Origin: Candidatus Zixiibacteriota bacterium
GTDB taxonomy: Bacteria > Zixibacteria > MSB-5A5 > SM23-73-2
DNA length: 64,000 nt
Direction: 5' to 3'
Assembly: GCA_030615745.1 (NCBI GenBank)
Contig: JAUWYR010000005.1
Coordinates: 1-64,000, forward strand
A program made the position numbers and the translations under genes. A model generated the notes under the pieces. That model was given only the letters and a program-made list of their open reading frames with translations. It had not been told where the DNA came from and did no database searches. Below are positions 2,192 to 44,612 of the stretch, one piece after another; positions within the stretch are counted from its first letter, which is position 1; every line of letters begins with the position of its first letter.

Positions 2192-2260
2192 CGCGTAGCG
2201 GAGGGTTTATCCCTCCGCGCAGAGCCATAAAGGCTCCCTGGCCGGGCAGGCTGCTACGCG
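2192..2260. repeat. GTAG-foot double hairpin (REP/BIME-like)
   Basis: Begins CGCGTAG and ends CTACGCG. The first stem is CGGAGGG/CCCTCCG, the second GAGCC/GGCTC, followed by the insert CCTGGCCGGGCAGGC. A rearranged inverted relative lies at 39822-39890. The spacer 1938-2321 otherwise holds no convincing gene. Confidence 0.75.
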
Positions 2261-11557: not shown

Positions 11558-11655
11558 GTAGGGGAGACCCTCGTGGTCTCCCGCTGGTGGTTGGGAGGGG
11601 ACCCCCCCGCCAGAGGCGGGGGGATTTCACCAGACTCAACAAGCCCCTCCCCTAC
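11558..11655. repeat. GTAG-foot double hairpin with nested palindrome
   Basis: Starts GTAG and ends CTAC. Hairpin 1 is GGGAGACC/GGTCTCCC with loop CTCGT. Hairpin 2 is GGGAGGGG/CCCCTCCC, whose loop carries the insert CCCCCCGCC-AGA-GGCGGGGGG. The same insert sits in another hairpin loop at 41281-41318. Confidence 0.75.
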
Positions 11656-19018: not shown

Positions 19019-19041
19019 GTAGCGCAAGGCTTTAGCCTTGC
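19019..19041. repeat. GTAG-foot hairpin
   Basis: GTAGC then GCAAGGC-TTTA-GCCTTGC. A single, unpaired member of the family, in the 18858-19253 spacer that also holds a repeated promoter element and a long hairpin. Confidence 0.65.
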
Positions 19042-26048: not shown

Positions 26049-26167
26049 TGAAGGCACGATTTTACAAAACTGCGCGTTTGTTATTCATTTTGCTCAAAGT
26101 AGAAACTCCAATTTTAAGCATCAAAGTAAAACATAAGAAAGCTGACTTTAGGACGTTTCAAGAATAG

Positions 26168-26267
26168 AAATTCCCGAATGCGTTATTAGGTGCGGGAAAT
26201 CCCCGGAACGGGTCTTGAGACAATTCCCGCACCAACTAAAAAAAGTAAAGCTGAAGCTTTACACTCC
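26168..26267. repeat. Mosaic repeat, copy 2, plus GGAGTG-foot hairpin
   Basis: The right half of hairpin A (AATTCCCGAATG) and a full hairpin B (GGTGCGGGAA ... TTCCCGCACC with CCCCGGAACGGG in the loop). Then GTAAAGC-TGAA-GCTTTAC followed by ACTCC (26245-26267). Confidence 0.7.
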
Positions 26268-26274
26268 AAAGATG

Positions 26275-26616
26275 CTAACAGGTGAGATGAAAAAGCCCTA
26301 CGATTTTTTCCTTTTGGCAAAGTTTATTAAGAGTTTTACAAGCTTCTTTTGTATCCTGTTCAATTAATTTTATCCCCTTTTTCTTAAAAAGTTCAACCGT
26401 CTCAGGAAGAACTTCCATGTATCCATAAAATCCTTTACCAACAATCACTGTGTCTGGCTTAACCTTGAAAATATCTTCGGTTAAATCCTCAACTGAAAGC
26501 TGGTGAGAGGTCTTTCTCCACCAGGAGCTATCAATTTTATCAAGGTAGATTATAACATCTGAGGTATATTTTTTGCTATCTATTACTATTTTTCCGAATT
26601 CATATGAGTCTATCAT
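26275..26616 (-). CDS. Mth938-like domain protein (NDUFAF3/DUF498 family)
   Basis: 113 residues, a full single domain. MIDSYEFGKIVIDSKKYTSDVII, then SSWWRKTSHQLSVEDL and KPDTVIVGKGFYGYMEV and a C-terminal KLCQKEKIVGLFHLTC fit the family, whose human member is a complex I assembly factor. The bacterial role is unclear. It sits 13 bases downstream of the amidase gene and may be cotranscribed. Confidence 0.82.
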   Translation of the reverse strand: MIDSYEFGKIVIDSKKYTSDVIIYLDKIDSSWWRKTSHQLSVEDLTEDIFKVKPDTVIVGKGFYGYMEVLPETVELFKKKGIKLIEQDTKEACKTLNKLCQKEKIVGLFHLTC

Positions 26617-26629
26617 AACGAATAAATTT

Positions 26630-28513
26630 TTATTCTGTTTTCTCTAAAAAATTCAAAATCCCATAATAGATACCCTCAGCGATTTTTTGTTGAAATCTTT
26701 TCTTTTTTAAAAGTATCTCCTGCTCAGGTAAGATTATGAAAGCGCATTCCACTAAAACAGATAAAAGCTGTGATGGTCTGGTCAAAGCCAAATTTGCGTA
26801 GTACAGCCCATAATCACCAAGCCTTAATTTTTTTACCAGTTCCTTTTGAATCTCTTGTGCCAGAGGTTTGGCTTGAGGGTGATAATAATAGGTGCTTGTT
26901 CCGTTGTTGTAAAAGGGATTTATCCCGTCAGGCAAGGCATTGTTATGGATGCTTATGAGAATATCACAGTCTGCCTCAATTGCTTTTTGGGGTCGATCAT
27001 AAAGTGGGACATCCTCCATCCCCTTTCTGGTCAAGATGACTTCCGCCCCTCTCCTCTCCAAGATTTTTTTCAATCTTTTTGCTATCTGAAGATTAACCAC
27101 CTTTTCAGATAGTCCAGTTGGACCAACAGCTCCAGGGTCTTCAGAATGTCCAGGATCTATCCCAATCGTCAAACCTTTTAATTTTCCTCTAAACTCAGGC
27201 TTTTTCTTAATTTCCAGAACCAAAATCTTATTCTCATAGAACACATCATAGCCCCAGAATTGCTTTTGATTTAGATAAATTTTTAACTGGTAAACCCCAT
27301 TTTTTGGCTGGGTCCATTTAATCTGATCGATTATTTTATCTTCAGAATCATATCTGATCCAATCAGTATTGGAGATAGCATAATAGATGGTAAAAATTAA
27401 GCTGGATTTCTCCTGTTCCACTTTATAGGGGAGTCTTTGCTGAAGGGGTATTCTTACCTGAACACCTTTTTCTGTTTTCTTGGTTCGGATATGAGTGATG
27501 TAGCTTTTTGGAACAGGTGTTCCTTCTAAAAGAAAGGCTACCGAGTCTTTTTCCACCCAGGCGGTCTCATCATCTGCTAATTTGATTCTAACCCAATCAC
27601 CTGTCCTTCCGGTTGCCACCGCCCTTACTCCCTGAGGTTGATACAAAAGCACATAACCCAACTTTGGACCGGTTCGGGCAATTAGGGTTGGGTCTAAAAA
27701 TTCTATTATCTGTGGGGCCTGATACTTTTTTAAAGTTATCTTTGCAGGTGCTTCCTCCACCACACTTACCAAGTTGTTGAGGGAGTCAATTACAGAATTT
27801 TTTGGAAATGAAAAGGTCAAAAAGTCCCTAAGGGAGGAAAGCCTTTTTGTTAGTCTAAATATAATTTTTGCTGAATCGATCTTATCGTTTTCCTTGACGA
27901 TATATGAACCATAATAAATTCCTCTGACCAAATCTTTTTCTTTCTCCTTCTCATCCTCTTCGAAAACTACCAAATCTTTTGAAGGAAAGGTTTTATCTAA
28001 AGAAAGTTCAGCCATGGGTAGATCATAGGTGAGGCCATCGATTCTGAAATATCCCCAGCAATTAGGAGTTCCCCTGAAACTGACCTGAATGATATCCCCA
28101 GGGGTTAAAACCAAATCCAAATTTGGTTTAATACTTTCTTTTTCTATCCTTAAAGTATCATCCGGAGTAGAACTGAGTGGATGGGGGATAATGACTTTAA
28201 CTGTGTCAAAAGTGGTTCCTTTTTTATTTTCTGCTTTTAATTCAAAGAAAAAATCACCTGGTTTCAAAGGCAGGAAAGCCATGAATGCACCATTTTCATA
28301 GACTTTGACATCAAATCCATTTATCTTCAAAGATGAGTTAGGTGTAACCTGCCCGAAGATGAATGTGGAATCATATGCACCTATCTTCTGTCCATTTTTA
28401 GGATAGACCACATCTATCTTGGGAGCAGATTGGGCTATACCGAAATGTAAGCTCCAAAAGAAGAACAAAGAAAAAAAGACCTTAATACAAAATTTGTTTT
28501 TTAATCTATTCAT
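26630..28513 (-). CDS. N-acetylmuramoyl-L-alanine amidase with SH3-like and AMIN-like regions
   Basis: 627 residues, exported (signal peptide about 1-28). Residues 30-110 look Ig-like (VYPKNGQKI... GAFMAFLPLKPG), 270-330 SH3-like (VRAVATGRTGDWVRIKL), and 335-430 AMIN-like beta-rich. The catalytic amidase_3 domain is at about 440-625. Zinc and catalytic residues are seen in DPGHSE, GLSEK, SIHNNA and VECAFI. It cleaves peptidoglycan stem peptides from MurNAc in the periplasm, probably at division. Confidence 0.92.
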   Translation of the reverse strand: MNRLKNKFCIKVFFSLFFFWSLHFGIAQSAPKIDVVYPKNGQKIGAYDSTFIFGQVTPNSSLKINGFDVKVYENGAFMAFLPLKPGDFFFELKAENKKGTTFDTVKVIIPHPLSSTPDDTLRIEKESIKPNLDLVLTPGDIIQVSFRGTPNCWGYFRIDGLTYDLPMAELSLDKTFPSKDLVVFEEDEKEKEKDLVRGIYYGSYIVKENDKIDSAKIIFRLTKRLSSLRDFLTFSFPKNSVIDSLNNLVSVVEEAPAKITLKKYQAPQIIEFLDPTLIARTGPKLGYVLLYQPQGVRAVATGRTGDWVRIKLADDETAWVEKDSVAFLLEGTPVPKSYITHIRTKKTEKGVQVRIPLQQRLPYKVEQEKSSLIFTIYYAISNTDWIRYDSEDKIIDQIKWTQPKNGVYQLKIYLNQKQFWGYDVFYENKILVLEIKKKPEFRGKLKGLTIGIDPGHSEDPGAVGPTGLSEKVVNLQIAKRLKKILERRGAEVILTRKGMEDVPLYDRPQKAIEADCDILISIHNNALPDGINPFYNNGTSTYYYHPQAKPLAQEIQKELVKKLRLGDYGLYYANLALTRPSQLLSVLVECAFIILPEQEILLKKKRFQQKIAEGIYYGILNFLEKTE

Positions 28514-28576
28514 ATCTAAAAAAACTTTTTTATTTGTTCATTTTTATATAATCGACATCAAAAAAAGTTTTCGTAA

Positions 28577-29716
28577 TCAATTTATGTAAACTTTGGGCAA
28601 TCTTTTTCCCATTCTCGATATGATCTCATAGTTTATCGTTGAAGACCAGAAAGCTAAATCACAAGCTGTGATTTCTTCTTCCCCGTTTTTTCCGATTAAG
28701 GTTACTTCATCCCCGATTTTGACCCCTAAAATATCCGTAACATCAACCATAAAAGCATCCATACAAACTCTGCCAATTACTGGAGCTTTTTTGCCACGGA
28801 TCAAAACCTCCCCTTTATTTGACAGAAGCCTGGGGTATCCATCAGCATATCCTAAGGGAATAGTAGCCACTTTGGTCTTCCTTTTTGTGAAAAAAGTTCT
28901 GCCGTAACCTATAAAACTTCCCTTTTCCACTTCTTTTAAAAACATAATCTTTGATTCTAAAGACATAACCGGCTCAACTCTAATCGATTTTGAGAGTTCC
29001 TCGGATGGATAAACTCCATAAAGCAGGAGACCAACTCTTACCTGGTTAAAATAACTTTCCGAAAGGTTTAAAACCGCAGCTGAGTTAGCAATAGATTTGA
29101 TCAAATCCCTCTGGTTTAAAAATTCAAGTCTCTTCAAAACTTCTTTGAACTTGTTAATCTGCTTTAATGCGGACTTTTTATCTTCCCCTTCAGCCTCTGA
29201 TAGCTGGGATAATATCCCTTTTATCTTTATATTTTCCAACTCTTTTATCTTTTTAAAAAACTCATAGGATTTTTCAGCAAAAAATCCATATCTTCCCATA
29301 CCAGTGTCGATTTTTAAAAAAACTTCAGAGGTTTTTTTCTGTTTTTTCGCCTCTAAAGAAAGCATCCTTGCAAATTCGAAATCTGTAATAGTCGATTCCA
29401 GATCATATTCTACAATCATTTTTTCTCTTCCATAAAACTCAGGATAAAGAATAAGAATTGGCGATTTAATCCCTTTTTCTCTTAATTCTATACCCTCCTC
29501 CAGGATAGCCACACCCAGACTTCCCGCTCCGTTTTCTAAAACCACCTTTGATACCTCGTAAGCACCATGCCCATAACCATCTGCTTTGACCACAGCCAAA
29601 AGCTCAACTTCTGGTCCTAAAGTTTTTTTAATATTTTTTGTATTTAGAGCCAATCTTTTTAAATCGACCTCTAAAAAGGCGGGTCTTTTGAATCTGTTTT
29701 CGCAAGTTTTGCTCAT
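28577..29716 (-). CDS. alr: Alanine racemase
   Basis: 379 residues, PLP-dependent racemase making D-alanine for peptidoglycan. The PLP lysine is Lys44 in AVVKADGYGHG. The catalytic Tyr loop FIGYGRTFFT and LGYADGYPR, GRVCMDAFMVDV in the C-terminal beta domain are all present. Normal length. A promoter at 29729-29757 lies upstream. Its neighbour, the cell-wall amidase, is in the same direction. Confidence 0.95.
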   Translation of the reverse strand: MSKTCENRFKRPAFLEVDLKRLALNTKNIKKTLGPEVELLAVVKADGYGHGAYEVSKVVLENGAGSLGVAILEEGIELREKGIKSPILILYPEFYGREKMIVEYDLESTITDFEFARMLSLEAKKQKKTSEVFLKIDTGMGRYGFFAEKSYEFFKKIKELENIKIKGILSQLSEAEGEDKKSALKQINKFKEVLKRLEFLNQRDLIKSIANSAAVLNLSESYFNQVRVGLLLYGVYPSEELSKSIRVEPVMSLESKIMFLKEVEKGSFIGYGRTFFTKRKTKVATIPLGYADGYPRLLSNKGEVLIRGKKAPVIGRVCMDAFMVDVTDILGVKIGDEVTLIGKNGEEEITACDLAFWSSTINYEIISRMGKRLPKVYIN

Positions 29717-29728
29717 AATTTTCAGAGT

Positions 29729-29757
29729 TATATATTTAATCCAGACTTTAAAGTCAA
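29729..29757 (-). promoter_or_regulatory. Promoter of alr
   Basis: Minus strand TTGACT (29752-29757), 17 bases, TATATA (29729-29734), with a 5' leader of only about 6-10 bases before the ATG at 29716. Confidence 0.65.
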
Positions 29758-29877
29758 GTAAAGTTTTCTCAGGTTGAAGGTGAATGGATAAAAAATTTTG
29801 ATTTAAAAAGGTCTTAAAAGAAGGTAGACCACAAACAAAAATTTATTCTACATCGTAAAAAGACGAAAGCCCCGAAT

Positions 29878-29917
29878 AAGGGGAAGGAGAAAAGCTTACG
29901 TTTTTTTCCTTCCCCTT
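29878..29917. repeat. Purine/pyrimidine hairpin in the alr-gltX spacer
   Basis: AAGGGGAAGGAGAAAA pairs with the complementary arm at 29902-29917 (one G-T pair) around GCTTACGT. It lies between two divergent genes, so a terminator role is not obvious. The rest of 29758-30072 shows nothing recognisable. Confidence 0.5.
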
Positions 29918-30072
29918 CCTCCCTTCTATAACCTGTTTAAAGATAATTTAATGGTTTCATTATTCTCAAAGCTATTACCCTTAACTTTTTTCAAAAGAAA
30001 ACCGAAAATTCTTGCTTTTCTTTCCGATAAACATTATTTAGATATGTATAAACCATTAAACCCGGGGGAGAG

Positions 30073-30447
30073 ATGAAATTTGAATTGAAAAGAATCGATG
30101 TCTGGAGTATTACCAAGATAAGCTTTTTTCTGAACGGTGTCTTTGGGTTGCTTTTTGGTTTTTTCTATGCCCTTATTCTTGCTATGGTGGGAAGTATGAT
30201 TGGACCTCTATCCGGAGGGGAGTTCGATTCATTCGGTGCATTAACCGGTGCCTTCGGAATCTTTTTTGCAATTATTTTAGCTATATTTTCTGCTGTAACC
30301 GGAGGAGTCACAGCTGCTGTTTTTGCCTGGCTTTACAATCTTTTTGCCAAATGGATCGGTGGAATAGAAATAAATTTAGCCGGGGAAAAAATTGAATCTG
30401 TCTCACCATCTGATGAAAAATCAGAGGGGATGTCCAGATATGAATGA
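30073..30447 (+). CDS. DUF3566-like small membrane protein
   Basis: 124 residues with two to three helices (about 14-40, 55-75, 80-100). The N terminus KRIDVWSITKISFFLNGVFGL resembles DUF3566 membrane proteins, which begin with R-V-D-x-W-S-x-x-K-x-S. The C-terminal tail is Ser- and Glu-rich. GGGGGAGAG precedes the ATG. The stop overlaps the start of gltX by eight bases, so the two are coupled. Confidence 0.6.
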   Translation: MKFELKRIDVWSITKISFFLNGVFGLLFGFFYALILAMVGSMIGPLSGGEFDSFGALTGAFGIFFAIILAIFSAVTGGVTAAVFAWLYNLFAKWIGGIEINLAGEKIESVSPSDEKSEGMSRYE

Positions 30448-31885
30448 GGTCAGAGTAAGAATTGCACCCTCTCCATCAGGTTTTCTTCATGTTGGGATTG
30501 CAAGGACTGCTATTTACAACTGGCTTTTTGCGCGTCATCATAAGGGGGTCTTTATTCTAAGGATCGAGGATACCGACCCGTCCCGTTCAAGTCCTGAGAT
30601 GGTAGAAGCTATAATCGAGAGTTTGAAATGGTTGGGTCTGGATCGGGATGAGGGACCATACTATCAGTCCCAGAGAAAAGAACTTCATCAGAAATATGCC
30701 CAGAAGCTTTTGGAGACTAAGAAAGCTTACTTTTGCTTTTGCACGCCCCAGGAGTTGGAGGAAAAGAGAAAAAAAGCCAAAGCCTCTAAGGCTGACTGGA
30801 AATATGACCGCACCTGTTTAAAACTTTCGGATGCGGAAAAAGAGAAAAAAATAAGAAAGGGAGAGCCCAGGGCGATAAGGCTTTTGGTCCCATCAGGCAA
30901 AACAGAGTTCGATGATCTGGTTTACAAACATTTAGAAAAGGAGAACGAAGATATTGATGACCTTATAATCGTTCGTTCAGATGGTAGACCAACTTATAAT
31001 TTTGCCTGTGTTGTAGACGATGTTGAGATGAGAATCTCACATATTATAAGGGGAAATGACCACATCTCAAATACGTTCAAACAGATTCTCATCTATAAGG
31101 CTTTTGAGCTGACTCCTCCTAAATTTGCTCATATTCCTCTTATCTTAGGAAAGGATAAAGCCAAGGTCTCCAAAAGGCATGGGGCGATCTCTGTGATGGA
31201 GTATAAGGAACAAGGCTTTCTGCGGGAAGCTTTTTTGAATTTCTTAGCCCTTCTGGGTTGGTCACCCAAAGACAACAGGGAAATCCTTTCCACAGAAAAG
31301 ATGATAGAGCTGTTCTCCCTTGAAGGAGTGAATCCAGCCAATCCAATTTTTGATCCAGAGAAACTTGAATGGATGAACGGGGAATACATCCGCGCTAGCG
31401 ATAATGAAAAGCTTTGCGACCTGGTCATTCCCTTTTTGATCAAGGAGAATTTGATTACAGACAAGACAGCGAAACAGAAAAGGGAAAGGCTTTTGAAATT
31501 TGTTTCATTGTTCAAAGAAAGATGCAAGACTTTGAAAGATTTTGCAGAAAAAGGTAAATACTTTTTTGCGTTTGACTACAGGTACGAGCCAAAAGCTGTA
31601 AGTGAACATTTCAATTCCGCTGAAGATGTTCAAAGATTGAACACTTTTGTCCAACGCTTGGATCAACTTGAAAGATTCGAAAAAGAGAAAATTGAACAAG
31701 CGCTACGCAACCTAACAGATGAGATGAAAATAAAGCCCGCCCCCCTGATTCATACGGTTCGCTTGGCAGCAACCGGAACCTCATCCGGACCCCCGCTTTT
31801 CGACATCTTGGAACTTCTGGGCAGAGAAGAGGTTGTAAAAAGAATCAAAAAAGCAGTTGAGTTTATTAAGACGAAATTCAATTAG
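30440..31885 (+). CDS. gltX: Glutamyl-tRNA synthetase
   Basis: 481 residues from the ATG at 30440; an in-frame ATG at 30392 would add 16 unrelated residues inside the upstream gene. RIAPSPSGFLHVGIARTA contains the HIGH-type motif (HVGI), and KVSKRHG is the KMSKS loop. The anticodon-binding domain follows to the end (LIHTVRLAATGTSSGPPLFD). The zinc Cys cluster is partial (CFCTPQE). A glnS gene nearby suggests it need not charge tRNA-Gln. Confidence 0.95.
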   Translation: MNEVRVRIAPSPSGFLHVGIARTAIYNWLFARHHKGVFILRIEDTDPSRSSPEMVEAIIESLKWLGLDRDEGPYYQSQRKELHQKYAQKLLETKKAYFCFCTPQELEEKRKKAKASKADWKYDRTCLKLSDAEKEKKIRKGEPRAIRLLVPSGKTEFDDLVYKHLEKENEDIDDLIIVRSDGRPTYNFACVVDDVEMRISHIIRGNDHISNTFKQILIYKAFELTPPKFAHIPLILGKDKAKVSKRHGAISVMEYKEQGFLREAFLNFLALLGWSPKDNREILSTEKMIELFSLEGVNPANPIFDPEKLEWMNGEYIRASDNEKLCDLVIPFLIKENLITDKTAKQKRERLLKFVSLFKERCKTLKDFAEKGKYFFAFDYRYEPKAVSEHFNSAEDVQRLNTFVQRLDQLERFEKEKIEQALRNLTDEMKIKPAPLIHTVRLAATGTSSGPPLFDILELLGREEVVKRIKKAVEFIKTKFN

Positions 31886-31926
31886 AAAAGGTCGCTGAAA
31901 AAAGCCAAATAGAGAAAGGTTTAACT

Positions 31927-32062
31927 GGAGTGTCAAGCTTTAGCTTGACCTGAAAGGTCCTGAAAGGCAGAAGATCTTTAGTTGGTTCACCTAAAGGTGA
32001 ACACTCCAAATTCCGCTATCAGTTGTGTAGTTGTGTAGGTCAGGAGCCCTGTGCTCCTGACA
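31927..32062. repeat. Hairpin cluster between gltX and the RAYT gene
   Basis: GGAGTGTCAAGC-TTTA-GCTTGA, later GGTTCACC-TAAA-GGTGAAC followed by ACTCC (an inverted pair with a GGAGTG foot). Then GTAG (32035-32038) and GTCAGGAGC-CCTGT-GCTCCTGAC (32039-32061). Confidence 0.75.
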
Positions 32063-32072
32063 TCCAATATTA

Positions 32073-32576
32073 TTATTCTCCAAATTCTCCCTCAATCTCG
32101 ATGGTGCCCATCACTCCCCAGTCGCGAGAATAGAACCCCTCCGCATGATATTTGTGCATCGACGAGTGCGGCCAGTCGAACGGGGAATTGACGTATCTAT
32201 GTTTGACCGGATTAAAATGAATATAATCGATATGTCGATTCAAGTCTTCTTGGTCTCTAATAATATGATCCCAAAAGCGATTTTGCCATATTCTGCCGCA
32301 AACTAGATTCATTCGCTTTCGCCACAAGGCACCAAAGCTCATTTTGATTCGCTGAAGAATGTTTGAAATGTCGTGTTCTTTGGGGTCGATGACGATATGG
32401 AAATGGTCAGGTAAAATAACCCACGCCATTATGTCATAGGTTGATTTATCTTTGACCGTATTAAATCCAGTCCAAAGCAAATCAATGTTATCGACCAACA
32501 CAGGCTTTCGCCTGTATGTTACATTGGTGATGAAATAGAGATTACCCTCACCATGGTAACGACGCAAAATGGACAT
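32073..32576 (-). CDS. REP-associated tyrosine transposase (RAYT, Y1 HUH family)
   Basis: 167 residues. The HUH pair is His58 and His60 in LPDHFHIVI, and the catalytic Tyr118 is in DLNRHIDYIHFNPVKH. FDWPHSSMHKY is the typical C-terminal segment. RAYTs nick single-stranded REP hairpins beside a GTAG tetranucleotide. Matching GTAG hairpins lie 11 bases downstream (32035-32061) and 60 bases upstream (32636-32662). Length is normal and both catalytic motifs are intact. Confidence 0.9.
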   Translation of the reverse strand: MSILRRYHGEGNLYFITNVTYRRKPVLVDNIDLLWTGFNTVKDKSTYDIMAWVILPDHFHIVIDPKEHDISNILQRIKMSFGALWRKRMNLVCGRIWQNRFWDHIIRDQEDLNRHIDYIHFNPVKHRYVNSPFDWPHSSMHKYHAEGFYSRDWGVMGTIEIEGEFGE

Positions 32577-32635
32577 AATTACAATAACAACAAAGGCTTG
32601 ATTGTTAAAACAAATTGTCTCCCATGAAATAAACT

Positions 32636-32662
32636 GTCAGGAGCGCGGGGCTCCTGACCTAC
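32636..32662. repeat. GTAG-foot hairpin inside the 3' end of glnS
   Basis: GTCAGGAGC-GCGGG-GCTCCTGAC then CTAC. It is the inverted partner of 32035-32061 (same nine-base stem) and encodes the glnS stop codon and last residues. Confidence 0.85.
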
Positions 32663-34415
32663 TCAGTTGCTCCTTCTCGATCTTTGCCCAGGGGTCATAA
32701 AGCGATACTGTCCGATTGAATACCAGTTTTTCATCGGACGTGTCAGAATCAACGCAGAAATAGCCCAGCCTTAAGAACTGATATTTATTTCCAGGTTTTG
32801 CACCAGCAAGGTTAGGCTCAACTTTGCACGAAGTCAATATCTCCAACGAGTTCGGATTCAAATTAGCTTTGAAATCAGAACCCTCCTCCACATCGTCTGG
32901 ATTTGCTTTCAGGAAAAGATGATCATACAAGCGCACTTCGGCTTCGAGAGAATGAGCAGAAGAAACCCAGTGCAAGGTAGCTTTGACCTTACGTCCTGCT
33001 TTAGCCCCGCCGCTTTTAGTCTCAGGGTCGAAACTTGCGTGCAGTTCGACCACTTCGCCCGTCTTTTCATCCTTAACTACCCTTTCACATCTGATAATAT
33101 ACGCGTGTTTTAGACGAACCTCTTGACCAGGAGCTAATCGGAAAAACTTTTTCGGTGGAACCTCTCGAAAATCGTCTTGTTCGATAAAAAGCACACGAGA
33201 AAAAGGAACCTTACGCGTCCCCATACTAACATCCTCTGGATTGTTTATAGCTTCTAACTCTTCGGTCTGATCTTCCGGATAGTTGTCTATGACCACCCGC
33301 AGTGGTCGCAACACAGCCATAACACGCATAGCTTTTTTATTCAAATCTTCTCTGAGGCAGTGCTCTAAAAGTGCTATATCAACGATACTATCCCTCTTGG
33401 CCACTCCGATACGCTCACAAAAGTTTCGGATTGCCTCCGGGGTGTAGCCACGTCTTCGCAAACCTGAAATCGTGGGCATTCGTGGGTCATCCCATCCCTT
33501 GACATATCCTTCTTCTACCAATTGCAGAAGCTTTCTTTTGCTCAAAACTGTGTGACTTAAATTCAAGCGAGCGAACTCGATTTGCTGTGGGTGATGAATG
33601 TTCAATTGATCAAGAAACCAGTCGTACAAGGGGCGATGGTCTTCAAATTCTAAGGTGCAAATCGAATGGGTGATCCCTTCAATGGAATCTGATTGACCAT
33701 GGGCAAAGTCGTACATCGGATAGATGCACCACTTATCGCCTGTTCGGTGATGTGTCGCATGAAGGATGCGATACATCACCGGATCCCGCAGGTTCAAATT
33801 TCCGGATGCCATATCAATTTTCGCCCGAAGAACATGGGCACCGTCCTCAAATTCGCCTGCGCGCATACGCTCGAAAAGATTTAGGTTCTCTTCGACCGAA
33901 CGATTTCTGTGAGGACTTTCCCGACCGGGTTGGGTCAAGGTGCCGCGGTACTCTCTGATTTCATCAGCGCTCAAGCTGTCGACATAAGCCTTGCCATCCT
34001 TGATTAACTGCACCGCGTACTGGTATAGCTTGTCATAGTAGTCAGATGCAAAAAACAGCCTTTCCTCCCAATCGAATCCAAGCCAGCGAACATCCTCTAT
34101 GATAGATTCCACATATTCAGCTTGCTCTTTGGTTGGATTGGTATCGTCGAATCGCAAATTGCAAAAGCCTCCGTAATCGGCGGCTAAACCGAAATTTAGG
34201 CAGATCGATTTGGCGTGTCCGATGTGCAGATAGCCGTTAGGCTCCGGCGGAAATCGGGTGTGCACTCGCCCTTCGTATTTGTTTGTGCTCAGGTCCTCCT
34301 CGATGATATCTCGGATAAAATCGGAGGGGCGAGTAGAATTGGTCTTTTTCATACTTTTGGTTTTTTTCTCGTTTTTCTTTTTGCTGTTTTCTGGCTCGGT
34401 GTTCGGTGATTTCAT
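32637..34415 (-). CDS. glnS: Glutaminyl-tRNA synthetase
   Basis: 592 residues. A Lys-rich N-terminal extension of about 30 residues precedes [18 protein letters not shown] (HIGH motif at about 63-66). [25 protein letters not shown] and VLSKRKL (KMSKS loop) follow, then two beta-barrel anticodon domains. GAGGTG lies upstream of the ATG. The last seven residues (RSGAPRS) and the TGA come from the GTAG hairpin. Base composition is visibly higher in G and C than neighbouring genes, fitting the known lateral spread of bacterial glnS. Confidence 0.95.
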
Positions 34416-37135: not shown

Positions 37136-37313
37136 ATAGCGTCGGGCTTTGCGAAGCTCGAAGAGTCCTTCGGGCATGCCCGACGGAAAAAAGGAGTGCG
37201 AAAACAAGTTTTCGCAAAGTAGGGGAGCCCCTTGTGGGCTCCCGAAGGACGGGAGGGGATGAACCCCTCCCCTACGCAGAGACATACACGTCTGGGATGA
37301 ACCCAGACGCTAC
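37136..37313. repeat. Nested REP/BIME-like cluster
   Basis: TAGCGTCGGGC (37137) and GCCCGACG (37178) are arms of one hairpin opened by a 30-base insert containing CTCGAAGAGTCCTTCGGGC. TGCGAAAAC/GTTTTCGCA and a complete 57-bp GTAG...CTAC pair (37219-37275) follow. The half-element CGTCTGGG-ATGAA-CCCAGACG-CTAC ends it (37289-37313). The outer pieces equal the intact pair at 39900-39957. Confidence 0.8.
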
Positions 37314-37370
37314 AAGAGAAAATAGGAGGTTTAAAGATGAGCAAAATAAAGATTATCAAATCTAAATGTG

Positions 37371-37608
37371 GTGGACAGGTCCCCTGACCTGTCCACATAA
37401 GTTGCTTTCTTATGTTGGTGCAGGAATTGTCTCAAGACCCGTTCCGGGGATTTCCTGCACTTTGCTACGGTTGGGGAATTCCCCCGCTTTTCAGTGGGAT
37501 CTTTATGACAATTCCCTAACTAACAAAAAAATGGGTTTTGAATTGGTAGCCGCAACCTTCAGGTTGCGTAAGGAATCTCATTTTCGCAGGCTAAAGCCTG
37601 CGGCTACC
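37371..37608. repeat. Further hairpins, mosaic repeat copy 4 (inverted) and a GTAG pair
   Basis: GTGGACAGGTC-CCCT-GACCTGTCCAC (37371-37396). The inverted mosaic repeat (37414-37524) begins GTTGGTGCAGGAATTGTC. A GTAG pair (37546-37608) has stems CGCAACCT/AGGTTGCG and GCAGGC/GCCTGC and ends GGCTACC. The remainder of 37609-38251 holds CCTCCCGACA/TGTCGGGAGG (37749-37775) and a promoter. Confidence 0.7.
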
Positions 37609-37813
37609 GTCTATCATCCTTAACATTTTTCCGCGTTTTTAATGCGGTGGATTTTAAATAGTATCCTTTCCGTTCCATCGGAATGTTATCATCCCGAAAT
37701 TCCAATTTCTACAAAATAAGTGCCTGATTTTGTGTCGTCAAAAGTTACCTCCCGACAGGAATATGTGTCGGGAGGAAACTCCTGACACCACCTAAATTAT
37801 AGCTATTTTTTTC

Positions 37814-37844
37814 TTGACAAATAGGGTTTTAAGGTTAATATATA
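37814..37844 (+). promoter_or_regulatory. Promoter upstream of the repeat protein gene
   Basis: TTGACA (37814-37819) followed by an AT-rich -10 region (TATATA at 37839-37844, or TAATAT closer). It would give a leader of about 400 bases before the ATG at 38252. Within that leader are the arms GCCGAATT/AATTCGGC near 38116-38133. Confidence 0.45.
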
Positions 37845-38251
37845 AGAAAGATTTCATAATAAATACTTTGATTTGACTCTTTTTAGAAAACAGCAAGTTT
37901 GTATCAGAATTTGAGGTCTTGGTTTTTCTGTTTTTGATTGTCCTCAAAGGATTGGGGAGATAAAAGGGGCAAATTAAAAAACAGAGGGGGAAGTTCTTTT
38001 AACCTCTGACCCGATGTGGGGAGGTGAGGCTTATTTTATAACCTTTTTTTGTCTGATATTGCAAGGGAAAAATTCTTAGGTTGTTTCTGCATTTTTAATG
38101 CAGAAAAATTTAACTTGCCGAATTACAAATTCGGCAACAACAGGGAATTTCAAGTTCGGCAGCAACGAGAAAGCGGCAGCAACAGGATTTTTCAAGGGGC
38201 AATTGTTAACTAAAATTTCTTTAACCCTTCTGAAAAGAAAGGAGCAAGCGA

Positions 38252-39817
38252 ATGAAATCGCAAAGAGTTTTGGTTTTAGTGGGGCTAAGTTTCATCTTTT
38301 TGTTTTCATCTTTGATTTTTGCAGATGTGCCCCAGATGATTAACTATCAGGGGAAGATAACCGACCCCCAAGGGGCGTTGATTGACACCATAGTTGCGAT
38401 GACATTTAGCATCTATTCAAGCAGCATTGCGGGAGTTCCCTTATGGACAGAGACTCAAGCTTCGGTTGTGATCGAAAAAGGGATTTTTAGTGTGCTGTTA
38501 GGGAGTGTAAATCCTATTCCGGACTCTGTTTTCGACGGGACAGTTCAGTATTTGGGGGTTAAGGTTGGTGGGGACTCTGAGATGATTCCGAGAAAGGCGA
38601 TAGTCAGTGTGGGTAATGCTTTTCGCTCAGCCAAGGCTGATACCGCTGAGTATGCCCTCTCTGCTACTCCTGATGATGACTGGGACATAGACACATCAGG
38701 TTTTAACATCTACCGCCTAACCGGTAATGTAGGTATCGGATCATCGATTCCACCACAATACAAATTAGACGTAGGAGGAACAGCCCAGATGACAGGCTTT
38801 AAGATGCTGACTGGTGCTTCTAATGGCTACGTTTTGACCTCAGATGGTTCAGGAATGGGAACCTGGCAGTCAGCTGCTGGAGGTGATAATGACTGGACCT
38901 TCAGAATAACTGATACCGCTGACACCACCCTTATGACCGGCGGTGCCTGGGGAATTGCCCGATACGGCAACACCCTTTACGGCAATGCGGATTCCACCCA
39001 TGTGAACCTTGGGGTTGCCTGCACCACAGGAACCAGTGGGCAAAACTATAAATACTGCACTGTGGGAGGTGGATATTCCAACACCGCCAGCGGCGTGTAT
39101 GCAACCGTAGGAGGTGGAGAAAGGAACACCGCCAGCGGACAGGATGCAACCGTAGGAGGCGGATATTCCGACACCGCCAGCTACTATTATGCAACCGTAG
39201 GTGGTGGACGTTACAACACTGCCAGCGGGATTTCTTCAACCGTAGGAGGTGGAGAGAACAACACCGCCAGCGGGGCGAGTGCAACCGTAGGAGGTGGAAC
39301 TTACAACACCGCCAGCGGCAAACGTGCAACCGTAGGAGGAGGATGTTACAACACCGTCAGCGGGTGGGAGGCCACCGTGGGAGGAGGATGTTACAACACC
39401 GCCAGCGACATTCGTGCAACCGTAGGAGGTGGATGGAGAAACACCGCCAGCGGGTATATTGCAACCGTACCTGGGGGTTATGCAGATACTGCTGCTGGTG
39501 ACTACTCACTGGCCGCCGGAAGCGAAGTAGTGGTTTCCTCTGACGCTGATTATACTTTTGCTTTTGGAAGAGATTTCACGACTTCGACTCCTAATGCGGT
39601 CATCTTCCACAACACGCATAACCCTATCAAGGTCGGCATCGGGACGGCGAGCCCTCAGGGAGCTTTGGATGTGAATTCGACCACAGGAGCACTCATCGTC
39701 CCAAGAATGACCACAGCCCAGAGGAACGCCTTAACTGCAGTGAATGGTATGATTATCTATAATACCACAACCAATCAGTTCAATTTTTATGAAAACGGAG
39801 CCTGGGTTACAAAATGA
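38252..39817 (+). CDS. Secreted repeat protein with YadA-head-like beta-roll
   Basis: 521 residues. Signal peptide about 1-24, then a conserved N-terminal domain (VPQMINYQGKITDPQGALID). A collagen-like/S74-type motif region follows (GNVGIGSSIPPQYKLDVGGT). Residues about 270-410 are eleven tandem 14-residue repeats of the form ATVGGGxxNTASGx. The tail has VGIGTASPQGALDV and YNTTTNQFNFYENGAWV. The repeats resemble left-handed beta-roll heads of trimeric adhesins. There is no chaperone or peptidase active site. AAAGGAG precedes the ATG. Confidence 0.82.
   Translation: MKSQRVLVLVGLSFIFLFSSLIFADVPQMINYQGKITDPQGALIDTIVAMTFSIYSSSIAGVPLWTETQASVVIEKGIFSVLLGSVNPIPDSVFDGTVQYLGVKVGGDSEMIPRKAIVSVGNAFRSAKADTAEYALSATPDDDWDIDTSGFNIYRLTGNVGIGSSIPPQYKLDVGGTAQMTGFKMLTGASNGYVLTSDGSGMGTWQSAAGGDNDWTFRITDTADTTLMTGGAWGIARYGNTLYGNADSTHVNLGVACTTGTSGQNYKYCTVGGGYSNTASGVYATVGGGERNTASGQDATVGGGYSDTASYYYATVGGGRYNTASGISSTVGGGENNTASGASATVGGGTYNTASGKRATVGGGCYNTVSGWEATVGGGCYNTASDIRATVGGGWRNTASGYIATVPGGYADTAAGDYSLAAGSEVVVSSDADYTFAFGRDFTTSTPNAVIFHNTHNPIKVGIGTASPQGALDVNSTTGALIVPRMTTAQRNALTAVNGMIIYNTTTNQFNFYENGAWVTK
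39058..39490 (+). repeat. Tandem 42-bp coding repeats
   Basis: About eleven units built on GCAACCGTAGGAGGTGGA and AACACCGCCAGCG, in register with the reading frame of the secreted protein. Codons are highly uniform between units, so copy number is likely unstable. Confidence 0.85.
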
Positions 39818-39821
39818 AGAA

Positions 39822-39957
39822 CGCGTAGCAGAGCCTTTATGGCTCTGTGCGGAGGGATAAACCCTCCCTGGCCGGGCAGGCCGCTACGCGGAGATAAATG
39901 TAGCGTCGGGCTTTATGCCCGACGAATTAAACCGTCTGGGATGAACCCAGACGCTAC
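39822..39957. repeat. Two GTAG-foot double hairpins
   Basis: 39822-39890 runs from CGCGTAG to CTACGCG and is an inverted, rearranged relative of 2192-2260. 39900-39957 is GTAG, CGTCGGGC-TTTAT-GCCCGACG, AATTAAAC, CGTCTGGG-ATGAA-CCCAGACG, CTAC. Together they fill the spacer between two secreted-protein genes. Confidence 0.8.
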
Positions 39958-39979
39958 AAAAGAAAATAGGAGGTAAAAA

Positions 39980-40450
39980 ATGAGTAAATCTAAACTTATT
40001 AAATTGGCAGTATTTTTCTCGGTGGTCTCTCTTTTCGTTCCCTTAATCTTTTACGCCACTCCTCAGGCTCAGAACTTCAAATTGGTAACCGATGTCTTGG
40101 ATGAGTTCGGAGGAAGGGCAAGCTCAACCAATTACTTATTAAGGGTCTCAACCGGTGGTCAGTCATCTGCTGGTGGGAAGATGCAAAGCACAAATTATCA
40201 AGCCAGTTCTGGATATGCCCATTCAGCCTGGGTCTGGCATGGTGATACAAACGGAAATGGGTATATCAACCTTGGTGATGTGATCTACTTAGCCAACTAT
40301 CTCATGAAGGGAGGACCTGAACCCCAACCTATGGAGGCAGGTGCTGTCAATGACATCACTACTGTTTGTGATAACATCATAAATTTGGCTGACATCATCT
40401 ATTTAGCCAACTACCTTATCAAAGGTGGTCCACCACCGTGTAACTTGTAG
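39980..40450 (+). CDS. Secreted dockerin-like repeat protein
   Basis: 156 residues: signal peptide about 1-30, a short linker domain ([25 protein letters not shown]), then two F-hand/dockerin-like calcium repeats. These are [26 protein letters not shown] and an imperfect partner with [20 protein letters not shown] (each read in parts). The same tail ends the M28 peptidase at 56633. There is no enzymatic domain, so it is probably a surface attachment or scaffolding module. Confidence 0.85.
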
Positions 40451-40464
40451 AAGTTTAATTTTGC

Positions 40465-40550
40465 GCTGTCGGGAGGTAACTCCCGACAGCGATTAAAAAG
40501 GAGTGCGAAAACTTGTTTTCGCAAAGTAGGGGAGCCCCTCGTGGGCTCCC
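40465..40550. repeat. Hairpin cluster before acpS
   Basis: GCTGTCGGGAG-GTAA-CTCCCGACAGC (40465-40490), TGCGAAAAC-TT-GTTTTCGCA, then GTAG (40526-40529) with GGGAGCCC-CTCGT-GGGCTCCC. The last two units are also adjacent at 37197-37243. Confidence 0.75.
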
Positions 40551-40559
40551 TAAAACAGT

Positions 40560-40931
40560 TCACTCTTTTAAAAGCAAAGCCACCGCAATTGCATAATCAT
40601 AGGTATGGGAAAGACTGATAATTATTTTGCCTTTTCCAATTCTTTTTTGAATTTTATCTGAAATTTTCAACTCTGGTTTCCCGCTTCTCGTTTTTATAAC
40701 CTCAAAATCTTTCCAGACAACACCTTGAGAAAGGCCTGTACCTAAAGCTTTCATCGCCGCCTCTTTAGCACAGAATCTTCCAGCAAAAAAAATCTCAGGG
40801 AAACTCTTTTCATCACAATAACTTACCTCAGATGTGGAAAAAACCCGTTTTTTAAATCTATTCCCCCACTTCTGGATAGCCTTTTTAATCCTTTTTGTCT
40901 CAATTATATCTACCCCTAAAGAATCCACCAT
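40560..40931 (-). CDS. acpS: Holo-[acyl-carrier-protein] synthase
   Basis: 123 residues, a normal AcpS length. The Mg2+ ligands are Asp8 in LGVDIIE and the Glu in FCAKEAAMKAL near 57. It transfers 4'-phosphopantetheine from CoA to ACP. The C terminus ISLSHTYDYAIAVALL is typical. The gene stands alone beside a repeat cluster. Confidence 0.92.
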   Translation of the reverse strand: MVDSLGVDIIETKRIKKAIQKWGNRFKKRVFSTSEVSYCDEKSFPEIFFAGRFCAKEAAMKALGTGLSQGVVWKDFEVIKTRSGKPELKISDKIQKRIGKGKIIISLSHTYDYAIAVALLLKE

Positions 40932-41011
40932 AAAAATTTTTAAAAAAACACTTGCTTTTTTAATTTTTTTGTTTTACTTATTTATATGGAAAGGGTTGTT
41001 TTGAAAAACCT

Positions 41012-41257
41012 TTAACACCTAACAAATGAAGGTCGCCCCTGGATGTTGAGCGTACGCGATGATCCCTTCTTGGAGGAGCGAAAGCAAAAGACGACCCAGT
41101 GGCTGTAAAAACCCTTTAATGTGTTAGACCGTGAGTGTTTCTTCAAAACCTCAGCCCTTTCCTTTTTATTTTCTCCCAAAAATTGGTAAACTCTATCCAA
41201 CACCTTGCCATCCTTTTCTACCCTAAAAACAATTCCTGTTGGAAAATTTTTTTCCAT
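41012..41257 (-). CDS. Hypothetical small protein
   Basis: 81 residues; the first 45 (FPTGIVFRVEKDGKVLDRVYQFLGENKK) look protein-like, the rest (CFRSSKKGSSRTLNIQGRPS) less so. No good ribosome-binding sequence. It is same-stranded and 86 bases downstream of nrdJ, so it may be the decayed tail of that operon. No family recognised. Confidence 0.3.
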   Translation of the reverse strand: MEKNFPTGIVFRVEKDGKVLDRVYQFLGENKKERAEVLKKHSRSNTLKGFYSHWVVFCFRSSKKGSSRTLNIQGRPSFVRC

Positions 41258-41280
41258 CTCTATTAAAGTTCAAAGAAAAT

Positions 41281-41318
41281 ATTTCCAACCCCCCGCCTCT
41301 GGCGGGGGGATTGGAAAT
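41281..41318. repeat. Palindrome nested in a hairpin loop
   Basis: ATTTCCAA ... TTGGAAAT form the outer stem; the loop is CCCCCCGCC-TCT-GGCGGGGGG-A, the same insert as at 11611-11631. Confidence 0.75.
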
Positions 41319-41342
41319 AACATCCCCCCTCCCCACTCCTTT

Positions 41343-43550
41343 CTAACATTTGGAATACCCACAGCTTCTACACACCACACAACCACCATCATATTCCAAT
41401 TTAGCTCCGCAATCAGGACAATGCTCAAAATACAAATCTTTAAATGAATTCAGGTTTTTCCCCTCTCCGAAATGCTTATTTAAAACCTTGGCAATTGCAT
41501 CCGGAATTGACATAATAAGCCCTCCCTCCTGAAACACAGGCGAAGCCCCTCCAATCCCGATCAACTGATCTATGATTTTATCCACTCCAATTCCTGACCT
41601 TAACCCCAAGGAGGCAAGCCGACATATCGCCTCTGTATCCGCCATTGTTGAATAGCCAGATTTACCTATCTGAGCAAAGACCTCAAACGGTTTACCATTT
41701 AAAGTGTTCACCGTGACATAAAGATTTCCATAACCTGTTTTTATCTTCTCCGTAATTCCGCTTAATGTTGAAGGTCGCTCCATAGGAGTTATCTTCAATT
41801 CCGCAACGGTTTTTCTCACTGACAAAACTTGCTCTGTTCGACTTTTATCCCTGTAGATAGTTATACCCTTACACCCGAGCTTATAAGCTAACTTGTAAGT
41901 CCTATCAACGTCCTCAACTTTTGCATAACTGGGCAAATTTATAGTCTTGGATACAGCATTATCAGTATATTTCTGAAAGACTCCTTGCATTTTAATATGC
42001 CACTCAGGCGCCACATCAAAAGAAGTCACATAAATTTTTTTAATGTCTTCAGGAATCTCATCAAACTCTTTCAAGGAGTTTTTCTCAGCAATCCTTTCTA
42101 AAAGTTTTTTGGTCAAAAATCCTTTTTCCCTACCCTGATTTTCAAAATAGGGATTAACTTCAGTCAATTCAGTCTGATCCATAACATTTCTAACATAACA
42201 GATTGCAAAAATAGGTTCGATACCAGATGAACAGGATGCTATTATACTTATAGTCCCAGTAGGAGCAATAGTGGTGACGGTGGCATTGCGCATTGGAATA
42301 TTTTTATCATAATAGATGCTTTTGCTCCAGTTAGGAAAGTTGCCTCTTTTTTTAGCTAATTCAGAGGATATCAGGTGTGACTTCTCCTGAATAAATCTCA
42401 TAACTTTTTCCCCTAAATCCACAGCCTCTAAAGAATCGTAAGAAATCCGAAGTTGGACTAAAAGGTCAGCCCAACCCATAACTCCCAGACCTATCTTCCT
42501 GTTCTTTTTTGTATTCTCCTCTATCTGTGAAAGCGGATATTTGTTTACATCGATGACATTATCGAGAAAGCGAACTGCGATTTTTGTAACCCTTTCGAGC
42601 TTATCCCAGTCAATTTCAAAAGAATCACCAATTTTTCTGACCATCTTCGACAGATTGATAGAACCCAGATTACAGCTCTCATAGGGGAGAAGAGGTTGCT
42701 CACCGCAGGGATTGGTCGCCTCAAATAGCCCTACCTTTGTTATTGGGTTTTTTCCATTCATCTGATCAATAAACATCACTCCGGGCTCACCTGTTTTCCA
42801 GGCTTGCTTTATAATCAGGTCAAAAATCTCCTTAGCCTTTAATCTAACTGGATTGCCATTCTTATAATAAATGTTTTGGGTTCGCGGGTCTATAAGGTCG
42901 TAATATTCATCATTTTCTGCTTTCCTCATAAAATCGTCAGTCAACGCCACTGATATATTAAAGTTATTCAGCTCGGATAGATCTTCTTTTGAGGAGATGA
43001 ACTCCAATATATCAGGATGATCCACCCTTAAAACACCCATATTTGCTCCCCTTCTTGTTCCTCCTTGTTTAACAGCCTCAGTAGCAGCATTTATCACCTT
43101 CATAAAAGATATAGGACCAGATGCAACCCCTGAAGTTGAGGCAACAACTGAGTTTTTGGGCCTCAATTTTGAAAAGGAAAAGCCTGTCCCCCCTCCTGAT
43201 TTATGGATCAAAGCTGTATTTTTAACCGCATCAAAGATCGACTCCATGGAATCCTCAATTGGCAGGACAAAGCATGCGGAGAGTTGACCTAAGGGTCTTC
43301 CAGAATTCATAAGGGTAGGAGAGTTGGGTAAAAACTCCAAGTTCGACATAACATCGTAGAATTCTTTAGCTTTGTTTTCTACCTCATCATCAGTTGCCTC
43401 ATAATTTTTTTCAGCACCCGCTATCGCCTTTGCCACTCTCTGAAAAAGCTCCTCTGGAGTCTCTATGACCTTTCCCTGGTTATCTTTTATCAAATATCTT
43501 CTCTCTAAAACTTTGATTGCGTTTTCAGATAATTTCAATTGTGTATTCAT
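41343..43550 (-). CDS. nrdJ: Adenosylcobalamin-dependent ribonucleotide reductase (class II)
   Basis: 735 residues. Reduces ribonucleotides to deoxyribonucleotides. Recognisable blocks: LPNSPTLMNSGRPLGQLSACF, SGGGTGFSFSKLRPK, NPCGEQPLLPYESCNLGSINL, TIAPTGTISIIASCSSGIEP. The C-terminal zinc-ribbon CPDCGAKLEYDGGCVVCRSCGYSKC (in parts) probably regenerates the active site. It needs no oxygen, in line with an anaerobic or facultative life. It follows thyX by 13 bases in the same operon. Confidence 0.95.
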   Translation of the reverse strand: MNTQLKLSENAIKVLERRYLIKDNQGKVIETPEELFQRVAKAIAGAEKNYEATDDEVENKAKEFYDVMSNLEFLPNSPTLMNSGRPLGQLSACFVLPIEDSMESIFDAVKNTALIHKSGGGTGFSFSKLRPKNSVVASTSGVASGPISFMKVINAATEAVKQGGTRRGANMGVLRVDHPDILEFISSKEDLSELNNFNISVALTDDFMRKAENDEYYDLIDPRTQNIYYKNGNPVRLKAKEIFDLIIKQAWKTGEPGVMFIDQMNGKNPITKVGLFEATNPCGEQPLLPYESCNLGSINLSKMVRKIGDSFEIDWDKLERVTKIAVRFLDNVIDVNKYPLSQIEENTKKNRKIGLGVMGWADLLVQLRISYDSLEAVDLGEKVMRFIQEKSHLISSELAKKRGNFPNWSKSIYYDKNIPMRNATVTTIAPTGTISIIASCSSGIEPIFAICYVRNVMDQTELTEVNPYFENQGREKGFLTKKLLERIAEKNSLKEFDEIPEDIKKIYVTSFDVAPEWHIKMQGVFQKYTDNAVSKTINLPSYAKVEDVDRTYKLAYKLGCKGITIYRDKSRTEQVLSVRKTVAELKITPMERPSTLSGITEKIKTGYGNLYVTVNTLNGKPFEVFAQIGKSGYSTMADTEAICRLASLGLRSGIGVDKIIDQLIGIGGASPVFQEGGLIMSIPDAIAKVLNKHFGEGKNLNSFKDLYFEHCPDCGAKLEYDGGCVVCRSCGYSKC

Positions 43551-43563
43551 CTTTTATCTTTTT

Positions 43564-44220
43564 TTAAGAATCTTTTCTTTTTATCGCAATTTTATTTTTT
43601 TCATCTATAGCAAAATCCCAGAAAACAAAAGGTGCTTTTGTTTTTAATATTTTAAGCATCTCCAGGCACACAGCCCTTATCTCCCAGTGCGCTTTTGAGC
43701 TACATCTAACCTCGAATATATGTCTGAACTCTCTGAAGTTCGCAGATAAAACGATCTCTGATACAGTAGCATTTGGCAATATGTATCTGGCATCCTCTTT
43801 TGGAATTTTAGCTTTCACCATCTCCTGATAGAATTTTTCAGCCTCATATGCAGTTCTTTTGAATTCATCGACAAAATTGGAGTTTTCAACACTCGGAGGG
43901 ATTACGAACTCAAATTCTTTTGTCGCACCTTCTTTGAGTTTCCCGTATTCAACATATCTCTGGCTTTCCTGGGAAGGGGAGATAAGTCTGTGTCTGACCA
44001 TCTCATGGGTGAATACCCGGGAACCCCCTTTGATCCTGAACGTGGCGAAAGCGTGTTCTAAAACAGAGTGATGTCCTTTTTTTATAACCTTTTTTATAAG
44101 CTCTTCGGTCGATTTAGGGGGGTCATATCTATGGAAACTGAGATAACATGTTCTACAGGCTCTTTCAATGACGTCCTGTGCATTGGGAGTTATAGCCATA
44201 AGTTCTACTTTCAAAGACAC
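43564..44220 (-). CDS. thyX: Flavin-dependent thymidylate synthase
   Basis: 218 residues. The ThyX motif RHRxxxxxxxS is present as RHRLISPSQES, followed by QRYVEY; the C-terminal REFRHIFEVRCSSKAHWEIR block completes the FAD/dUMP site. It methylates dUMP using methylenetetrahydrofolate and NAD(P)H. With nrdJ downstream it forms a dTTP/dNTP supply operon. A promoter lies at 44336-44364. Confidence 0.95.
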   Translation of the reverse strand: MSLKVELMAITPNAQDVIERACRTCYLSFHRYDPPKSTEELIKKVIKKGHHSVLEHAFATFRIKGGSRVFTHEMVRHRLISPSQESQRYVEYGKLKEGATKEFEFVIPPSVENSNFVDEFKRTAYEAEKFYQEMVKAKIPKEDARYILPNATVSEIVLSANFREFRHIFEVRCSSKAHWEIRAVCLEMLKILKTKAPFVFWDFAIDEKNKIAIKRKDS

Positions 44221-44335
44221 AAATACCAGCTCCTCTCAAAAATAGATTCCCCCTCTAACCTGTTGGAATATTTAGAATTAAAGCAGAATCAAATTAAATC
44301 TTCTGCCTCTTATCTTTTTTTTATCGCTGAAACTT

Positions 44336-44364
44336 AAATTATAAAATAAAAAATTGTTTGTCAA
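44336..44364 (-). promoter_or_regulatory. Promoter of thyX-nrdJ
   Basis: Minus strand TTGACA (44359-44364) with TATAAT (44338-44343, spacer 15) or TAATTT (44336-44341, spacer 17), about 115 bases before the ATG. Confidence 0.55.
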
Positions 44365-44461
44365 GGAAAAAATGCGAATTTTTGCAAAAAAATCACAATA
44401 TGTTGTGTTTTAATAAATTATGAGATACAAAATGTTGGAGGTAAGCCTTGTTACCAAGTTC

Positions 44462-44612
44462 GTAGGTCGATTTTCTCATTTGAGTCATTTCTGACCAAAA
44501 TCGACATTTTTGGTTGTCGAAATTGGAATTTCGACTTACTTCTTTTTCTCACCCAGTAGGGGAGGGGTTTATCCCCTCCCGTCCTTCGGGAGCCCACAAG
44601 GGGCTCCCCTAC
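44462..44612. repeat. Two adjacent GTAG-foot double hairpins
   Basis: 44462-44539 is GTAG, GTCGATTTT/AAAATCGAC, GTCGAAATT-GG-AATTTCGAC, TTAC. 44556-44612 is a 57-bp GTAG...CTAC pair that is the reverse complement of 37219-37275 with one difference. Nothing else is recognisable in 44365-44710. Confidence 0.85.

Follow-up and report, generated by a model that had tools for sequence, protein, structure and literature searches.

Families of GTAG-foot hairpins and their associated transposases in a Candidatus Zixiibacteriota genome

Repetitive extragenic palindromes (REPs) of the GTAG superfamily are described as carrying a GTAG tag on stems of 6–13 bp and as forming many families, several of them in one genome, with subfamilies that differ by complementary stem changes and with head-to-head dimers that are often heterodimers (Di Nocera, 2013; PMC3733652). 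Here we analyse such hairpins in a stretch of 64,000 nucleotides (the window), positions 1 to 64,000 of contig JAUWYR010000005.1 of a Candidatus Zixiibacteriota bacterium (GCA_030615745.1), together with the REP-associated tyrosine transposases (RAYTs) to which they are tied. The hairpins share all these traits, are mostly intergenic and of high copy number, with 5′ GTAG (or GTRG) at the base of a short stem-loop, and are REPs and bacterial interspersed mosaic elements (BIMEs) of this known superfamily, with no continuum of stems. Whereas the superfamily was described mainly in Proteobacteria, Cyanobacteria, Chloroflexi and the Planctomycetes–Verrucomicrobia–Chlamydiae group, the present lineage is another one; about ten families occur here in 2.28 Mb, and the division of the stem into a lower and an upper part and the folding effect of heterodimers were measured.

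Three further systems are close to this one. The REPtrons of TnpAREP subclass 2.4, or RAYT group 4 (Quentin, 2018; PMC6006769), have three basal G–C pairs, as in our family A (GTAG-GGG), double-foot forms and an in-frame REP in the transposase gene; unlike them, this genome has family A REPs without such a RAYT, and the RAYT lineage beside the GGGAG variant is another one (L273). In REPINs (Bertels and Rainey, 2011; PMC3116915), two inverted REPs likewise form a RAYT-linked unit, but those of Pseudomonas are symmetric, with one long hairpin as the predicted fold, whereas here the upper stems differ and most pairs fold as two hairpins. Orphan REP classes and the 'orthoswitch' (Nunvar, 2013; PMC3686654) resemble the present case in that REPs are abundant with the cognate RAYT gone and that several classes occur per strain; they were described within Pseudomonas and Stenotrophomonas species, whereas here congeners or members of the same order hold the matching RAYTs. 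Heterodimers, orphan REPs, stem subfamilies and REPs in RAYT genes are already published, and the whole is rich but ordinary REP/RAYT biology. We consider it likely that about ten REP families have accumulated in this genome, each spread by its own RAYT lineage, and that most of these lineages are no longer encoded here.

Hairpin families and their transposases

A mechanical scan (GTAG foot, gap of 0–4 nt, perfect stem of at least 7 bp, loop of 3–8 nt) recovered 20 hairpins in the window, against 0–4 in each of 20 dinucleotide shuffles, and GTAG was the top-scoring 4-base foot, AAAA/TTTT aside. The window lies on contig 17, one of the 74 contigs of the genome; in a sample of stretches totalling 646 kb, window included (28% of the genome), we found 84 GTAG hairpins, 9 of them within open reading frames (ORFs) of at least 100 aa, and 65 in the intergenic DNA, against a shuffled mean of 0.1. 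An earlier, sequence-only reading of this DNA had listed 12 sites in the window where GTAG or CTAC borders a hairpin, and 11 of these were recovered, the exception being 44462, an odd or decayed hairpin whose GTCGATTTT and AAAATCGAC arms align around a long loop; the excess over chance was also confirmed. The site at 60814, with a 2-nt gap between foot and stem, is a weaker case, further real partners came from the scan at 37275, 37313, 37607, 39825, 39957 and 44612, and the matches at 13384, 19175 and 22582 appear fortuitous.

The same reading had the stem differ at nearly every site, and this did not stand, nor do the hairpins all share a single stem sequence: sorting by eye and by regular expression gave about ten multi-copy families, which in the sample are A (GGG[AC]G..., n = 14), B (C[AGC]GAG..., n = 15), C (GTCG..., n = 14), D (GCAC..., n = 11), E (GGACAG..., n = 5), F (CGCA..., n = 5), G (CG[TG]C..., n = 8), H (CCCACCTTG, n = 4) and I (GTCAGGAGC, n = 4), with 4 hairpins ungrouped. 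With the lower stem alone fixed, the family A pattern is matched 63 times in the whole genome and its reversed control never; loops are bound to the family (CTYGT or TTYAT in A, TTTAT in B, TCCA in C). The premise that classical REPs of one genome share a stem was likewise mistaken, since several families per genome are well documented (PMC3733652, PMC3686654).

The window encodes a RAYT of 167 aa (P0001; 32073–32576, reverse strand), with the HUH motif PDHFH and the tyrosine motif YIHFNPVKH, which scores 145.2 bits against NCBIfam NF047646 (REP_Tyr_transpos; cut-off 80) and matches Pfam Y1_Tnp above cut-off. It is bordered by two inverted family I REPs, GTAG-GTCAGGAGC-CCTGT at the downstream end of the unit (32035–32061, forward strand) and GTAG-GTCAGGAGC-CCCGC at the upstream end (32636–32662, reverse strand), which bears out the proposed tie between REP/BIME elements and a RAYT. 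The genome has three Y1_Tnp genes in all, against about ten hairpin families; the second (C65) is flanked by GTAG-GTCAAGT hairpins, and the third (C25, on contig 25) has GTTG-foot GTGCTGGATT hairpins on its flanks. Further GTTG-foot hairpins, with stems TTTCTGCATT, TTGCCGAATT and GTGCTGGATT, lie at 38080–38141 in the window and at 1380–2090 of L002.

At 30 loci of the phylum, P0001-like RAYTs mostly have GTAG-GTC(A/G)... stems, the GTCAGGAGC stem among them, within about 70 bp of the gene, and those of other genera carry the same GTC-type flanking stems. Families orphaned here also flank RAYTs in relatives: within the order, GGGAG stems at L273 (G100) and CGTC stems at L256 (G101) and L249 (G104); in the congener G109, GTCG stems at L260; and, elsewhere in the class, GGACAG stems beside L196 and L221. 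In a comparison of 132 genomes, the presence of a RAYT resembling subclass 2.4 (2.4-like) goes with more family A copies (p = 3.6e-5) and that of a P0001-like RAYT with more family I copies (p = 1.6e-5), p-values that overstate independence, the genomes being related; the crossed tests over the same genomes were not significant (p = 0.58 and 0.16). Hairpin abundance tracks the matching RAYT clade and not the other clade tested. On a tree of 83 RAYTs, built from few columns and with many open forks, a label made of the foot and the first three stem bases changes 30 times, compared with 51.2 when shuffled, and none of 200 shuffles was as low. All of the stem families tested are associated with RAYT lineages of their own.

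We propose that a separate lineage of HUH/Y1 single-strand transposase spread each of the hairpin families. The three RAYTs still encoded would serve the GTCAGGAGC, GTCAAGT and GTTG-foot GTGCTGGATT stem families, and the remaining families, several of them matched in congeners or in the same order, would be orphans whose RAYTs were lost or missed. Besides the limits attached above to the tree and to the p-values, several points weigh against this proposal. Transposition itself was not observed; families B, D, F and H had no matching RAYT among the relatives searched; and in seven genomes at least five family A copies occur although no 2.4-like RAYT was detected, this one being the extreme, with 59 copies and no match to a subclass 2.4 RAYT in the genome (G000). 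A promiscuous RAYT would also explain such copies.

The strongest alternative is indeed that one resident RAYT (for example that at 32073–32576) mobilises all GTAG hairpins in trans and ignores the stem, which would fit the three Y1_Tnp genes, the 59 family A copies and the weak dependence on stem sequence in assays of some RAYTs (PMC8266576). We nevertheless judge it improbable, since GTC-type stems are nearly the only ones beside the resident RAYT and its relatives, the stem families follow RAYT clades both in the 132 genomes and on the tree, and orphan REP classes left after RAYT loss are common in the literature (PMC3686654).

Lower and upper stem, and head-to-head pairs

Within a family, the 3–5 bp proximal to the foot are largely fixed, and the 2–4 bp proximal to the loop are variable yet still paired. 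In family A, both sides of the three upper-stem pairs left free by the pattern are changed in 9, 11 and 10 of 22 distinct sequences, pairing over the whole stem is 94.9% (74% in shuffled stems) and the covariation score is 0.465 (0.117 shuffled). In 22 2.4-like genes, stem entropy is 0–0.8 bit at positions 1–4 and 1.4–1.8 bits at positions 5–8. Since in these genes the lower stem is near-invariant and the upper stem free, the stem seems, from its sequence variation, to be read in two parts, the lower by the RAYT lineage and the upper mainly as structure. The RAYT would recognise the 4-base foot and the foot-proximal base pairs, kept fixed within a lineage, and the loop-proximal pairs, read mainly as paired DNA, would be left to drift into subfamilies. 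For a Marinomonas RAYT, the loop, the GTAG guide and a perfect stem were found to matter, with a moderate effect of stem sequence, strongest at the fourth pair (PMC8266576), and the published biochemistry of three characterised RAYTs agrees in part with an upper stem read as structure. The suggestion in the sequence-only reading that the transposase reads GTAG plus structure is retained for the upper stem, which varies with pairing kept, and is not supported for the lower stem, which is nearly fixed in each family and tied to its own RAYT lineage.

Perfect stems with compensatory changes might also result if a single ancestral element had drifted neutrally, its arms kept matched by arm-to-arm templated repair, and if recognition were not specific to lineages, but this would predict equal change in the lower and upper stem, whereas lower-stem entropy is far lower, discrete multi-copy stem types recur and one exact 25-mer pattern is found in at least 11 phyla; we hold it to be very unlikely. 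A role as intrinsic transcription terminators, or as RNA hairpins of another kind that do not move, would be compatible with their mostly intergenic and often plausibly transcribed positions, but is hardly credible and was rejected: a T run adjoins only 21 of 211 intergenic hairpins, the 69 elements placed by gene context divide into 45 between tandem, 14 between convergent and 10 between divergent genes, and terminators are not characterised by a fixed 5′ foot, by recurrence as families, by head-to-head arrangement or by a place beside RAYTs.

The two-part stem is also visible in the head-to-head pairs. None of 15 same-family pairs in the sample has identical stems, against 4.2 expected from random within-family pairing (P 0.005), a count of pair types as much as of events, since BIMEs copy as units and the pairs are not independent, which likewise weakens the case for our proposal. 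Partners are 93% identical in the outer 4 bp and 39% in the rest of the stem. Folding with DNA energy parameters predicted no cross-partner pairing in the best fold of 11 of the 15 natural pairs, and the other four lie within 0.7–5.9 kcal/mol of the two-hairpin state; with either partner exchanged for a mirror copy of the other, every pair is predicted to merge into one long hairpin, favoured by 10–17 kcal/mol. The partners share the lower but never the whole stem, and therefore two hairpins usually beat one long hairpin, so that these pairs differ from REPINs as symmetric pairs that fold as a unit. Unlike upper stems may thus serve to keep head-to-head units as separate foldable hairpins. Unlike partners are not new in themselves: heterodimers were described before, their excess was called unexplained and escape from SbcCD was suggested (Di Nocera, 2013; PMC3733652).

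Elements of the window and hairpins within RAYT genes

The elements of the window were placed by the scan and, for several, by the family sort as well. Family A provides a head-to-head pair of GGGAG|CCC (loop CTTGT; 37219–37243, forward) and GGGAG|GGG (loop TTCAT; 37251–37275, reverse), which was also folded, and a second pair of GGGAG|GGG (loop TTTAT; 44556–44580, forward) and GGGAG|CCC (loop CTTGT; 44588–44612, reverse). As the sequence-only reading stated, 37219–37275 is the reverse complement of 44556–44612 with one mismatch (98% over 57 bp). A single family A hairpin, GGGAG|CCC (loop CTCGT), lies at 40526–40550 (forward), and family A also includes GGGAG|ACC (loop CTCGT; 11558–11582, forward). 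In family G, CGTC|GGGC (loop TTTAT; 39900–39924, forward) is paired with CGTC|TGGG (loop TTCAT; 39933–39957, reverse), and a further CGTC|TGGG (loop TTCAT) lies at 37289–37313 (reverse). A family F pair consists of CGCA|ACC (loop TTCA, 1-nt gap after GTAG; 37546–37568, forward) and CGCA|GGC (loop TTTA; 37585–37607, reverse), with an F-like GCA|AGGC (loop TTTA, 1-nt gap) at 19019–19041 (forward). Family B is represented by CAGAG|CC at 39825–39847 and CGGAG|GG at 2195–2217 (both loop TTTAT, forward).

In the one congener compared, about 78% identical in shared genes, the cluster 37136–37313 is absent and the pair 44556–44612 is present at the same place in decayed form, a pattern that fits insertion at different times but does not itself show an insertion event. 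A paralogous gene region on contig 43 bears related hairpins. There, positions 26000–33000 (L244) hold a second copy of much of 37300–40500, at 74–92% identity and with REP hairpins of its own; the REPs and the surface-protein genes of this region seem to have been duplicated together. The ORF at 38252–39817 has many short repeats (NTASG..ATVGGG type), like those of trimeric adhesin heads, and a signal peptide-like start, and 39980–40450 encodes a small secreted-looking protein with two dockerin-like repeats.

The family A pattern GTAGGGGNGACCCTYGTGGTCNCCC, searched as an exact 25-mer in a scan without a control, occurs in genomes of at least 11 phyla by title, isolates included. In L079, L121 and L147 it sits in frame within a 2.4-like RAYT gene, past the HUH motif. 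Among 30 2.4-like genes of the phylum, chosen by protein similarity to a query that itself has the insert, so that a slight sample bias is possible, 25 contain a GTAG hairpin at that place in the gene, compared with 1.4 for control feet. Internal and flanking hairpins of the same gene agree at 7.4 of 8 positions (5.0 after permutation). The relatives L193–L222 have the motifs NH[IFV]H, WQ and YIxNNP and a REP within the gene, so that they belong by motif, rather than by a tree with reference sequences, to subclass 2.4. These genes, with L079, L121 and L147, carry their own REP pair just past the HUH motif in two reading frames. REP insertion within subclass 2.4 genes has been published (PMC6006769). 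Double-foot hairpins (GTAG...CTAC, matching both strands), such as GTAGGGGCGACCCGGCGGGTCGCCCCTAC, occur in the relatives G100, G101 and G102.

The GGAG(T) foot and the meaning of the two-part stem

The constant foot of the sequence-only reading has to be given up, since GGAG(T) and GTTG classes share the genome with GTAG. In the GAGT-foot hairpins of the genome, G precedes in 28 of 31, giving GGAG(T); two GGAG(T) stem variants reach 33 copies, and the control none. GGAG(T) flanks eight of nine genes of one RAYT clade of the phylum, with GTAG at none of the nine; this clade has tree support of 100, its NCBIfam RAYT score is 107 bits, and it has no member in this genome and one in the congener (L289/L294). 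These hairpins, with diversified stems, form a second REP-like class, also seen at L289, L263, L271, L297 and L298. In the window they lie at 31927–31949 (GTCAAGC, loop TTTA; forward, from the foot scan), at 32006, at 37194–37215 (GCGAAAAC; forward), directly upstream of the 37219 element, and at 40501, where that arrangement is repeated. GGAG(T) is absent from the published feet we found (GTAG, GTGG, CGTC, CnGA) in a survey that was not exhaustive, and a search for a GAGT foot gave only unrelated papers among its top matches; a GGAG(T) foot with its own RAYT clade is possibly new.

We therefore put forward tentatively, as a reading that is plausible but still short of probable, a two-part code in which foot and lower stem are read by sequence and the upper stem as structure, with unlike partners avoiding merging; the foot would itself be part of the code, as the GGAG(T) clade suggests. 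What makes this locus of interest is the clean two-part stem, the asymmetry of the pairs and what it entails for folding, and the RAYT clade with the GGAG(T) foot. The impression of one foot with any stem becomes a testable partition between base pairs read by the transposase and those that only need to pair, for which this genome and its relatives hold a natural swap series, with the same lower and different upper stems, and with different lower stems on the same foot. The foot-switched clade would serve as a test of a published model in which the foot directs where cleavage takes place.

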